Under the pieces are notes generated by a model. The model saw nothing but the letters and a program-made list of their open reading frames with translations. It was not told the DNA's origin and searched no databases. Below, one piece after another: positions 56,803 to 60,817 of a stretch of DNA of 64,000 nt. Both the position numbers and the translations under genes were made by a program. The DNA comes from Spirochaetaceae bacterium (GTDB lineage: Bacteria; Spirochaetota; Spirochaetia; Treponematales; Treponemataceae): contig JAGAAX010000016.1 of the NCBI GenBank assembly GCA_017614995.1, forward strand, positions 1 through 64,000, in the 5' to 3' direction. Numbering within the stretch: the stretch's first letter is position 1; each line of letters opens with the position of its first letter.

Positions 56803-57492
56803 TCAGCAGATTGTTGTGCCAATAAACGGCTTTTCATCTAAAATATTGCGGATATTCTCAATGTTTTTGCCGCCGGCGCAGATTACCGTAAGACCGGCAG
56901 ATTCAGCTTTTTTGCTTGCAATCGGGTCAAACGGGCAGTTTTTGCCCGGAACCCACTCATCGCCGACCATCTTTCTAAAGTCTGCCCAGCTTATTTTGTC
57001 AAGTGGCTTTGCGTCCGGGTTTTTCTTCGGGTCATCTGTGTAGACTTTTTCAATATTTGAAAGATTTACAACAGTTTTTGCACCAAAACGCTCGGCAAGA
57101 TAAACAGCGTCTGTATCTGTTGAAAAGCCAGGTTTCCAGCCGGCTGCAACAAGAACGCGCCCTGTAAAGTCGCCGCACTGTGTCGGGTCATAAACTACAG
57201 GCTCTTTGCACAAATCAGAGAAAATGGCGCGCAAAAGCTGTGCGTTAAGGCGCGTTGCCATAATGCCAATCCAGTCAGCTTCATCTGCGTTAGACGCAGA
57301 ACCTTCGTTTACGGCTTTATAAGCTGTCTGATACGCGCGTGCAGGGCCGCCGCCGCCAACTACGAGAATCAATTTATGAGAAGAATCTTCTTTAAGCCAG
57401 TCGCGCACAAGAGAAGCAAATTTCTTCAAGAATTCAGAATCAGGCTTGTCAGGTGCGACAATTGAACCGCCGACAGATAAAACTTTAACCAT
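56803..57492 (-). CDS. pyrH: UMP kinase (archaeal/spirochaete type)
   Basis: 229 residues from ATG 57492 (AAAAGGGG 6 bases upstream); the frame is open to 57543 over the end of the next gene. Amino-acid-kinase fold: VKVLSVGGSIVAPDKP, LILVVGGGGPARAYQ, PGFSTDTDAVYLAERFGAKTVVNLSN and FDPIASKKAESAGLTVICAGG. Phosphorylates UMP. The short form fits the archaeal-like branch found in spirochaetes. Downstream of the sigma operon, 18 bases from 57510. Confidence 0.93.
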   Translation of the reverse strand: MVKVLSVGGSIVAPDKPDSEFLKKFASLVRDWLKEDSSHKLILVVGGGGPARAYQTAYKAVNEGSASNADEADWIGIMATRLNAQLLRAIFSDLCKEPVVYDPTQCGDFTGRVLVAAGWKPGFSTDTDAVYLAERFGAKTVVNLSNIEKVYTDDPKKNPDAKPLDKISWADFRKMVGDEWVPGKNCPFDPIASKKAESAGLTVICAGGKNIENIRNILDEKPFIGTTIC

Positions 57493-57509: not shown

Positions 57510-59237
57510 TTAGTATACACCGGTTACGTTCGGTGTTGTCCAATAAGACGAATATCTTGTAACTTTGTCAGAACTTTCTTCCCATATAGACTGAAGGGCG
57601 TAGGTTTTAGGCTGGCAGACAATCTTGCTGTAGGCAATTGTCGGATGCAGTTTGTTGTAGCCCCTTGAAAACGTAATGTGCTGCGCGTCTAAATTGCCGA
57701 AGTAAAAATCTTTTACATTTGTCCGCTTCTTAAAGCACTCAAACGGAAGCCCTGCGCCCAAAGCCACATCTACAGGCACCCAGCCGAAAGATTCAATGTA
57801 GAACTCGCACCACCAATGCGGTCTTGAGCTTGAATCAGCGTCAACCAGAATGCCTGCACAAGGGCGCACAAGCACATTGCCGGCTAAAAGCAGCGCATCA
57901 TAAAGCATCGCAAAGTCGTATGCGTCGCCCTTCTTTGTTTCAAGCAAATCTATTACAGGCGCATCAGGCGAGCGCACATCAGAAAGCACTGTAAAGTTCT
58001 TTATCATATAGCTATAAATCAAATGTGCCTTTGTGTACGGGTTTGTTGTCTTGCCTATAATGGAACGCGAAAGCGCGGTAACTTTTTCGTTTTTTAAAAG
58101 TTCATTGATTGAATCCAAAGAAGCAGAAGAAGCCTGCTGAATCTTTGATATAGTATCTTTCTTAGAATATGGCTTTACAAGCTGTTCTTTAATTTCAGTG
58201 GAAACGGCTGAAGTGGTAACAACAAATGTCTGACCAATATTAACATTTGCAGCCGGAATTACCTGCTCTGTTTTTGAATCAGTTTTTTCAATCACAACAG
58301 AAGCATTAATTTCCTCGCCGTCAAACTGATGAACTATTGTACCTGCAATTTCTTCAATGGCAGGCTTGTGAGTAGCGGCTGTAACATCAACACCAGGCTG
58401 AGAGGCAAAAACCGGCGGCTTGGGCACTCTCAAGAAAATCAGCCCGTCATTGTCTGTTACAATTTCCCTAAGCTCAACAGAAGTATCAATGACATAAGTC
58501 CGTTTATCCAAAAAAGTCTTCTTCCCGAGAGTTTTTTGCAGCTCAAAAGGATAATTGTTGCTTGAGCCTTTTTCTGTTTCTATAAAGACAAAACCGTCAG
58601 AAGTTCCGTCAGGAACTCTTATGCGGACAAGCTCGTCACTCCAATATTCGTAGTCCTCATTTTCGCAGTAGATTTTCTCATCATTCTGGCTCAAGTCTGA
58701 ACTCTTGAACGAGAAATAAACTTTTGAATTATTGCGCATAAGCCCGAAGTTTTTTCCGTGAATGGAAAGCAGACCGCCGACGCACTGGCTTTTTTCTTCA
58801 ATTCCATAAATTACAGGAATTGATGTTGCCGGATCTGAAATAACTTTTACAGGTACTACCGTCTTGTTTGTAAAAATCTTAGGCTCACTTCTGCCGCCCT
58901 GCGTAACAACGTACACAAGCCCGTCGCGGACATTTGCCGGCAGTGTTATTACTATTTTGTGGTCGCTCCATTCAATGCAATTTGAAGCCGTAATGCGCAG
59001 ACCGCCGATTTCTACAAAGCTTTCTGTCTGTTCGTTTCCAAAATTGCTTCCATAAATCGAAAACACATCGCCCGGATTTCCAACTTTAGGATCAATAACG
59101 GTTATTTGAGGTTCTTTTATTTTTGTAGATGATATAATAGCCATTAAAAAAAGCAGCACTCCGATGAAAGACATCAGGAGAACTGCTCTTAATAACGGAT
59201 ATTTCCGAATTAGATAGGGAAATTTTTTATTACTCAA
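57510..59237 (-). CDS. TIG-domain protein with inactive transglutaminase-like domain
   Basis: 575 residues from TTG 59237, a 4-base TTGA overlap with the anti-sigma stop. One N-terminal membrane helix (17-37), two IPT/TIG domains (about 45-140 and 145-235: PKVGNPGDVFSIYGSNFG; SIPVIYGIEEKSQCVGGLLSIHGKNFG), a less clear middle, and a transglutaminase-like core (about 405-520). The His is in HWWCEFYI and the Asp in WVPVDVALG, but the nucleophile position reads GDAYDFAMLYDAL where active enzymes have GDCxDFA, so Cys is replaced by Ala. Probably a binding or structural envelope protein. Confidence 0.82.
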   Translation of the reverse strand: MSNKKFPYLIRKYPLLRAVLLMSFIGVLLFLMAIISSTKIKEPQITVIDPKVGNPGDVFSIYGSNFGNEQTESFVEIGGLRITASNCIEWSDHKIVITLPANVRDGLVYVVTQGGRSEPKIFTNKTVVPVKVISDPATSIPVIYGIEEKSQCVGGLLSIHGKNFGLMRNNSKVYFSFKSSDLSQNDEKIYCENEDYEYWSDELVRIRVPDGTSDGFVFIETEKGSSNNYPFELQKTLGKKTFLDKRTYVIDTSVELREIVTDNDGLIFLRVPKPPVFASQPGVDVTAATHKPAIEEIAGTIVHQFDGEEINASVVIEKTDSKTEQVIPAANVNIGQTFVVTTSAVSTEIKEQLVKPYSKKDTISKIQQASSASLDSINELLKNEKVTALSRSIIGKTTNPYTKAHLIYSYMIKNFTVLSDVRSPDAPVIDLLETKKGDAYDFAMLYDALLLAGNVLVRPCAGILVDADSSSRPHWWCEFYIESFGWVPVDVALGAGLPFECFKKRTNVKDFYFGNLDAQHITFSRGYNKLHPTIAYSKIVCQPKTYALQSIWEESSDKVTRYSSYWTTPNVTGVY

Positions 59238-59908
59238 CGATAAAAATCCACAGTCGGATATACAGTACTCTGATATGATTCTGAATCAATAAGCGGAAGT
59301 TCTGATACATCCGTAAGTTTAATATTCATTGGCAAAGTTTTTGTATTTGAAAATTCCGGCTTGAATACATCAACCTGTGTAAGGTTTGATACATGCAAAG
59401 AAACAGGCTGCACTGGAGTAGCAGTACGGTTTGTATCTGCAACCTGAAATGCCGAAACATTCACATTCTGATCTGCGGCAATTCCTGTCTTGTTAATCAA
59501 TTCAATTGAAGATGTTACAGGAACAAGTGCAATATCATTGAAATGCTGCTTTACCTGTGAGCGGATATTTGCAGCCGGCATAATTACAGCAGCAAGGAAT
59601 GCAGCCGCAGCGGCATAAGGAACAAACTTTCTTGCAGCGTTTGTATATCTGCCAGAAGTCTTGGCGGCAACTTTCTTGTAGCGCAATCTTGACTTCAAAA
59701 GCTCATAGCTTGCATCAAGTTCTGTCTTATCAAGATTTAAAGCAGCAGAATCAGCGGCAAAAGCATCGCGGATAGACTGAAGTCTTTCAACATGAGCTTT
59801 GCAATCAGGACACGCTTCTACGTGCGTTTTAATTTCATCATACCATGGGCTAGCAATTTCTCCATCAAGAAATGCTGAATGAAGTTCCATATTAGGGCAA
59901 GTAGACAT
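59234..59908 (-). CDS. Zinc-finger anti-sigma factor
   Basis: 224 residues. ZAS motif HVEACPDC (residues 29-36, H-x3-C-x2-C) with another Cys at position 4, as in zf-HC2 anti-sigma factors. A membrane segment lies at about 93-112 (YAAAAAFLAAVIMPAANI). The rest would be outside the cytoplasm. Overlaps the sigma gene by 17 bases. AGGAGAAGAGG precedes the ATG. Holds the ECF sigma inactive until a membrane signal. Confidence 0.9.
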   Translation of the reverse strand: MSTCPNMELHSAFLDGEIASPWYDEIKTHVEACPDCKAHVERLQSIRDAFAADSAALNLDKTELDASYELLKSRLRYKKVAAKTSGRYTNAARKFVPYAAAAAFLAAVIMPAANIRSQVKQHFNDIALVPVTSSIELINKTGIAADQNVNVSAFQVADTNRTATPVQPVSLHVSNLTQVDVFKPEFSNTKTLPMNIKLTDVSELPLIDSESYQSTVYPTVDFYR

Positions 59909-60452
59909 CCTCTTCTCCTATTAACTTAGATAACTGTTCGCGTGCTCTAAAAACACGTACTTTTACATTTCCTTCAGTAATTCCCAGAACGCGTCCGATT
60001 TCCTTGTAGTTAAGCTCCGCATATTCACGCAAAACAAGAACCATTTTTAAGTTCTGCGGAAGCTTCTCAAGTGCAGCCAAAACACGCTTCTGCGAATCAT
60101 TTTTCAGGTATTCAGTTTCACCTGAATCAACCTGACGCCGGTCTTCGTGCAGTGCCTTTTCGTAAGCACGCCGTTCGCGGCCTTTTCTTTTTGCATAGTT
60201 AAGAGAAGCATTCTTAACTACGCGTATCAACCAATATTTTGCATCGTCGATTGACGGAAACTCAAGATTCTTTTCGTGCATCTTTATCAGAGAATCGTGA
60301 ACCAAATCTTCTGCGGCTTCTTCATCTCCAACAACACGATAGGCAACCTTAAAGAGCACCTGCATCGTTGCATCATATATTTTTTTGAAATCTGATTCAT
60401 TACCAGCGCGAATCACTGTTGTTTCTGAATCAAGCTTTCTATCATTAAACAA
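59892..60452 (-). CDS. ECF RNA polymerase sigma factor (sigma-24/RpoE-like)
   Basis: 186 residues from TTG 60452 with GGGGG 8 bases upstream. Region 2: FKKIYDATMQVLFKVAYRVVGDEEAAEDLVHDSLIKMHEK, then YWLIRVVKNASLNYAKRKGRERR. Region 4: LAALEKLPQNLKMVLVLREYAELNYKEIGRVLGITEGNVKVRVFRAREQL. First gene of sigma - anti-sigma - TIG protein, all overlapping, so the TIG protein is a probable part of the same regulon or sensor. Confidence 0.93.
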   Translation of the reverse strand: MFNDRKLDSETTVIRAGNESDFKKIYDATMQVLFKVAYRVVGDEEAAEDLVHDSLIKMHEKNLEFPSIDDAKYWLIRVVKNASLNYAKRKGRERRAYEKALHEDRRQVDSGETEYLKNDSQKRVLAALEKLPQNLKMVLVLREYAELNYKEIGRVLGITEGNVKVRVFRAREQLSKLIGEEDVYLP

Positions 60453-60615
60453 TGGTTGCCCCCATTACGTTACAAACAATTTTAATTTTTTTTTAATCTT
60501 TATCTAATTTTTCTAATGGAAACCGGATAAAGATTCTATTGTAATATTCCGGTAAAAAGCCTTCTTTTCAGTATCGGCATAATTAAAACATAACTTTTCA
60601 AAAAAATAGAAACAA

Positions 60616-60773: not shown

Positions 60774-60817
60774 TAAAAAGGCTGTCAAAAAGGTATGCTT
60801 TTTAACAGCCAAAAAAT
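60774..60817 (-). terminator. Terminator downstream of cysS
   Basis: GGCTGT and ACAGCC, with inner CAAAAAGG/CTTTTT, and a T run on the minus-strand side. Ends cysS transcription. Confidence 0.8.

Follow-up and report, generated by a model that had tools for sequence, protein, structure and literature searches.

We analyzed a 64,000-nucleotide stretch, hereafter the window, of contig JAGAAX010000016.1 from a Spirochaetaceae bacterium (assembly GCA_017614995.1) placed in the family Treponemataceae. According to the list of open reading frames, three consecutive genes on the minus strand encode an extracytoplasmic function (ECF) sigma factor, a zinc-finger anti-sigma factor and, as the third operon protein, a membrane-anchored TIG-TIG-transglutaminase-like protein that we call TG (Table 1). 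The sigma and anti-sigma genes share 17 bases and the anti-sigma and TG genes share 4, which bears out the single operon of three overlapping genes proposed in a preliminary description made from the letters of the window alone. That description also read TG as a catalytically dead transglutaminase; the analysis below follows TG, its dead active site and its operon across the class Spirochaetia.

Table 1. Features of the sigma-anti-sigma-TG locus in the window
Feature	Position	Strand	Remarks
TGTAAC-N16-TTGTT dyad at the sigma start	60448..60474	-	located by pattern; conserved across the class
ECF sigma gene	59892..60452	-	186 aa from TTG; in-frame GTG 12 codons downstream
Anti-sigma gene	59234..59908	-	224 aa, ATG start
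Anti-sigma architecture			zinc-finger domain (H29-x3-C33-x2-C36) at the N-terminus, followed by a single hydrophobic helix and a periplasmic tail predicted to be disordered
TG gene	57510..59237	-	575 aa from TTG; membrane-anchored TIG-TIG-pseudo-transglutaminase
TIG domain 1 of TG, residues 44-124	58866..59108	-	model strands
TIG domain 2 of TG, residues 142-233	58539..58814	-	Pfam and model
Transglutaminase-like core of TG, residues 375-500	57738..58115	-	Ala439, His474, Asp490
Codon GCA of Ala439 at the catalytic Cys position	57921..57923	-	motif GDAYDFA
Terminator-like hairpin after cysS	60780..60810	-	separates cysS from the operon in the window's genome
AA_kinase gene (uridylate-kinase-like)	56803..57492	-	ATG at 57492, 17 bases past the TG stop

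By both sequence profile and fold, TG belongs to the transglutaminase-like superfamily. The Pfam family Transglut_core matched it with an E-value of 8.5e-16 and 58.6 bits (cut-off 23), and two TIG stretches also scored over the cut-off. The AlphaFold2 model, with a mean predicted local distance difference test score (pLDDT) of 83.2, runs from a single N-terminal hydrophobic helix (residues 14-39) through two TIG domains, a beta domain and the core to a C-terminal stretch with a conserved VTGVY-like end; the two TIG domains and the membrane anchor of the preliminary description are thus both present. A structure search with the model matched residues 241-575 to 3isr_A (Z 18.2 over 251 residues), a transglutaminase-like protein from Cytophaga hutchinsonii with the same beta domain and core fold, and found the TIG domains to be closest to those of cyclodextrin glycosyltransferases (Z about 14); in neither case does the common fold demonstrate function. 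Unlike TG, 3isr is titled a putative cysteine protease; the two are 14% identical, and the TIG domains and anchor of TG lie outside the match. Beyond the window's family, the TG anchor of at least eight loci resembles a lipoprotein signal rather than a plain helix, judged with a rough pattern that also matched locus L187.

In the active site, Ala439 replaces the catalytic Cys, as had been read from the motif GDAYDFA, and His474 and Asp490 of the triad are retained. Among 181 distinct C-terminal halves of TG from the class Spirochaetia, the Cys column holds Ala in 121, Ser in 28, Thr in nine, Pro in eight, Val in six, Gly in four, Met in two, and Asp, Cys and Ile in one each. Distinct sequences were counted because loci L164-L243 come partly from the same genomes as L001-L163; L145 (a generic transglutaminase without the operon), L136, L162 and L090 (partial) were left out. 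His and Asp are both retained in 176 of the 181 (four have Tyr for His and one is unaligned). On a tree of these sequences, at least 40 residue changes fall on the Cys column, one of them to Cys. An earlier set of 90 loci from the taxonomic order gave 45 Ala, 18 Ser, nine Thr, six Pro, five Val, three Gly, two Met, one Asp and one Cys, with His and Asp in all 90, and a separate collection of 80 loci gave 75 Ala and five Ser. The lone operon-borne TG with a Cys belongs to genome G041 (L089/L162), where it has a TGT codon in a gene split over two contigs; four other genomes of the same genus have Ala.

As a control, the aligned column holds Cys in 21 of 21 non-operon transglutaminase-core proteins of the same phylum, a set that we selected from the non-operon matches (the Cys of L145 had been seen beforehand, that of the other 20 had not) and that includes the near-copies L245/L246 and L247/L248. 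The window's genome has three further transglutaminase-core matches, two with Cys and one, aligned by eye, apparently with Ser. For TG, the ratio of nonsynonymous to synonymous substitution rates (dN/dS) ranges from 0.056 to 0.115 across eight pairs outside Borrelia and from 0.19 to 0.31 across four Borrelia-like ones; the gene is kept and is not decaying. At the level of sequence, these comparisons establish TG as a class-wide, conserved and constrained pseudoenzyme of the transglutaminase fold, one that lost its nucleophile long ago and whose cleft retained His, Trp and Asp. The Ser-bearing protein of the window's own genome is encoded on another contig (C39, L267:1044-1376).

The two proteins encoded upstream of TG have the features expected of their classes. 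The sigma factor matched Sigma70_r2 (residues 26-92) and Sigma70_r4_2 (123-174), both over the cut-off, and with regions 2 and 4 but without regions 1 and 3 it qualifies as an ECF sigma factor. The anti-sigma factor matched zf-HC2 with an E-value of 6.8e-4 and 20.1 bits, slightly under the cut-off of 22.2. C4, H29, C33 and C36 are invariant among 28 anti-sigma sequences, and the protein has the H-x3-C-x2-C motif that is given as the criterion of zinc-binding class I anti-sigma factors in the available part of a published account (PMC7406223). Its position suggests that it binds and inhibits its cognate sigma factor. Most of residues 121-224 have a pLDDT below 50, so the tail is predicted to be disordered and any sensing would fall to a partner. 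In many lineages, the tail ends in a pattern like LP....F...GEP..hRxADY.

The gene order murB-cysS-sigma-anti-sigma-TG recurs across the class. TG is preceded by the sigma and anti-sigma genes in 87 of 90 loci and in 79 of the 80 loci of a second collection; in the four exceptions (L062, L089, L090 and L200), TG begins no more than about 300 bases from the end of a contig or is truncated there. The parts of the operon are also found alone. Such a sigma factor is absent from 17 of 17 Borrelia-like genomes, which we take to be Borrelia from their family and gene order among other things, and a TG match is present in all 17. In the Borrelia-like loci, the Cys column holds Ala in three and Ser in one of four. 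The four loci read (L126, L128, L129 and L130) have TG directly after cysS, with no sigma factor, anti-sigma factor or X (a protein described below), and TG evolves faster in these genomes, still under constraint.

Conversely, all 12 genomes of another family (f13) have the sigma factor, and 11 of them have no TG genome-wide; in the twelfth (G323), the TG search matched just a Cys-bearing protein outside the operon. All 12 loci read from f13 have the anti-sigma factor and show no X and no TG, although one of these loci (L289) ends just past the anti-sigma gene. Genome G026, presumably T. pallidum, has the order cysS-sigma-anti-sigma, with no TG genome-wide, no TG remnant at the locus and no X; its sigma factor is 58% identical to that of the window. 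Because TG and the sigma pair are each found alone, neither half needs the other. Given that the Borrelia-like genomes keep TG alone, TG has a sigma-independent role, even if it probably originated as a component of the switch.

Outside the window's family, the anti-sigma and TG genes are usually separated by a gene for a further secreted protein, X, which has about 170-190 residues. One example is L065:3426-3971, and other loci outside the family have X in the same place. A profile search that recovered six of six controls found X in none of the genomes covered from the window's family (12), the Borrelia-like group (three), f13 (three) and family f11 (two); an earlier single-sequence search had no positive control. 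X is thus lost from the window's family. With E-values up to 0.1, no Pfam family matched more than one of 19 X members, and among the sequences of the PDB there were just two matches, both weak and both designed proteins (E 0.02 and 0.026). A GxPx-hydrophobic motif in the anti-sigma tail occurs in 41 of 47 loci with X versus 1 of 166 without it. Because this motif tracks X, X rather than TG is likely the direct partner of the tail, an association that is suggestive and not statistically significant.

A second conserved element is the dyad at the sigma start. In 208 of 210 loci, GTAAC occurs in the 200 bases that precede the first conserved residue of the sigma factor, a region in which no other 5-mer is as common (shuffled mean 39); in the set without L164-L243, it does not resemble the stop codon of an upstream frame in 67 of 132 loci. 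The full pattern GTAAC-N14,19-TGTT is found in 174 of 210 loci, against 0.45% of shuffles. With GTAAC as the -35 and TGTT as the -10 element, the dyad looks like a self-regulated ECF promoter, as we presume such promoters to be shaped. A scan of 12 genomes with TGTAAC-N15,16-TTGTT gave 47 matches versus 30 for the reversed control; 11 of the 47 are the operon itself, and no further target stands out. Since no regulon was found beyond the operon, we call the dyad only promoter-like.

The same letters bear on the start of the sigma gene. The preliminary description had assigned TTG starts to the first and third genes. For TG, the TTG start is supported by close relatives (L164-L167), which retain TTGA at the coupling point where many others have GTGA; for the sigma gene, it is plausible and not settled. 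The sigma TTG is preceded by a G-rich Shine-Dalgarno-like run, and a TTG is in frame with the sigma gene in 150 of the 174 TGTT-bearing loci, 145 of them stop-free. TTGTT also resembles a promoter -10 box, because GTAAC lies about 15-16 bases before it and because it is out of frame with the sigma gene in 24 of the 174. The two readings conflict for some loci, as 75 of the 174 offer no start codon in the sigma frame from the dyad up to the first residue that is conserved in the sigma factor. The dyad may double as promoter -10 and start codon, and within the window's family its TTG is well suited as the start.

We put at roughly 0.45 the probability that TG is a ligand-binding periplasmic pseudoenzyme that is co-expressed with the ECF module and probably feeds into it. 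On this reading, the TG cleft would bind a peptide-like periplasmic ligand, such as a peptidoglycan stem peptide or an exposed segment of an envelope protein, without cutting it, and TG would be made with the ECF sigma factor and the membrane anti-sigma factor as a member of an envelope-surveillance module. Across most of the class, X probably touches the tail of the anti-sigma factor, and the ligand-binding part would come from TG. In Treponema, where X is gone, TG may be either a looser accessory of the anti-sigma factor or mainly a product of the regulon.

Several observations weigh against a ligand-binding role within the module. TG and the sigma/anti-sigma pair are each kept without the other in some lineages, and the action of TG on the anti-sigma factor is proposed from genomic context. 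The replacement of His by Tyr in 4 of 181 sequences means that the cleft is not absolute. The loss of Cys also seems not to be unique to the operon, given the Ser-bearing non-operon protein. Finally, X was lost only twice on the sigma tree, and its link with the tail motif comes down to two independent pairs, which is not significant. This tree was built on 85 sigma rows, a chosen subset of those available (23 hand-picked loci from the window's family, together with L144 and loci from outside it); L053, L055 and L079 had been excluded by name, as had all rows shorter than 150 aa.

It is possible, if somewhat doubtful, that TG is the output of the system and not its sensor, that is, an envelope-maintenance or scaffold protein made under envelope stress via the sigma operon. 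This would fit the Borrelia-like murB-cysS-TG arrangement, in which TG stands without sigma factor, anti-sigma factor or X and is under purifying selection (dN/dS 0.19-0.31), as well as the f13 and T. pallidum-like genomes, which run the sigma pair without TG, and the GTAAC at the sigma start, which suggests a self-regulated operon. An output role leaves unexplained, however, the operon order with X across most of the class and the link between X and the tail motif.

The preliminary description had instead suggested that TG could be the sensor controlling the anti-sigma factor. We consider it unlikely that TG is such a dedicated sensor, one that would bind the anti-sigma factor and govern its release or cleavage. 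The overlapping genes, their conserved order in the window's family and an anti-sigma tail that looks disordered and lacks a sensor domain of its own all speak for it, but the tail motif tracks X and not TG, and the separate occurrence of the two halves is the main result against an obligate sensor. With TG lacking the sigma factor in 17 of 17 Borrelia-like genomes, and the sigma pair lacking TG in 12 of 12 f13 genomes and one T. pallidum-like genome, an obligate sensor role is disfavoured, and what is supported of the description is the operon, the two TIG domains, the membrane anchor and the dead core.

It is very improbable that TG has remained an enzyme, acting through Ser or some other residue. 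Ser does occupy the Cys column in 28 of 181 sequences, but the column is dominated by Ala (121 of 181) and otherwise admits Thr, Pro, Val, Gly, Met, Ile and Asp. A nucleophile moved to another Cys was rejected, as the sole other column with more than 25% Cys is that of residue 477, with 30%. That Ala is a local mutation or a sequencing error in the window's genome can be dismissed despite the one Cys-bearing relative (G041, 1 of 181), since Cys is absent from 180 of 181 distinct sequences and from 80 of 80 separate loci. Operon relatives that keep the Cys, which the preliminary description had named as the sign of a single mutation, come to that one sequence.

Returning to TG as a ligand-binding member of the module, we tentatively outline its history as follows. 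The class Spirochaetia may have inherited a four-part envelope-surveillance system beside cysS, with a self-regulated promoter, consisting of the ECF sigma factor, the zinc-finger membrane anti-sigma factor, X as a secreted docking protein from a family not yet described, and TG as a dead transglutaminase that binds an envelope ligand. Treponema would then have lost X, the syphilis spirochaete both X and TG, and the Lyme spirochaete would have kept only TG, as an orphan receptor. Such a history would trace both the sigma factor that is likely TP0092 of T. pallidum and a functionally uncharacterized Borrelia protein back to a single ancestral operon. It would also make TG a naturally occurring example of an enzyme fold that probably became a binder, throughout a class whose members include the causes of syphilis and Lyme disease.

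Both pathogens offer candidate counterparts. T. pallidum TP0092 (RpoE) is a sigma factor with a published regulon (Giacani 2013, as given in the available parts of PMC4222731 and PMC4368718). It is probably the orthologue of the window's sigma factor, based on the order cysS-sigma-anti-sigma in the T. pallidum-like genome, which differs from the window in having no TG and no X. In Borrelia burgdorferi, bb0600 is listed with a cyclodextrin transglycosylase (CGTase) domain in the accessible portion of one paper (PMC2845121). This label fits a TIG domain. From the murB-cysS-TG order in Borrelia-like genomes, bb0600 is probably the orthologue of TG, differing from the window's gene in standing without sigma factor, anti-sigma factor or X; we assume that the bb numbers follow this order.

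The arrangement resembles the E. coli RseA-RseB-sigmaE system, in which a membrane anti-sigma factor works with a periplasmic co-regulator that senses the state of the envelope. Here too a membrane anti-sigma factor is accompanied by a putative co-regulator, which in this case is a dead transglutaminase; a Pfam scan of TG with E-values up to 1 gave just Transglut_core and TIG and no RseB/MucB domain.

Inactive bacterial transglutaminases are already known. RloB of P. aeruginosa is an inactive transglutaminase with seven helices (PMC12239564), and a similar protein was found in a screen for extracellular vesicles (PMC12096838); according to the available parts of these papers, mutations in the two affect stress or vesicle phenotypes. 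With its one N-terminal helix, TG is not of the RloB type, which has seven transmembrane helices. The RloB operon encodes an ATP-grasp protein and an aspartic protease, and the accessible text mentions neither TIG domains nor a sigma operon for RloB. Inactive transglutaminase domains have also been described in polymorphic toxins, where peptide binding was proposed (PMC3482391, available part). Like TG, these domains have lost catalytic residues, adjoin a signal peptide or transmembrane helix and are sometimes accompanied by Ig-like domains; unlike TG, they lie within large RHS toxins with a proposed anchoring role, and their losses fall among C, H and D, whereas TG keeps H and D (PMC3482391). 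The architecture of TG and its sigma-operon context were not found in the literature searched: our search, for which subscription papers were mostly outside reach, gave no account of this operon or of a transglutaminase in a spirochaete ECF operon.

Upstream of the operon lie what we take, from synteny among other things, to be cysS and the divergent murB. Terminators in the region overall show no significant excess (six found versus 4.4 +/- 2.3 in shuffles). On the other side, the AA_kinase gene is frequently found 3' of TG in the window's family and may share its transcript.

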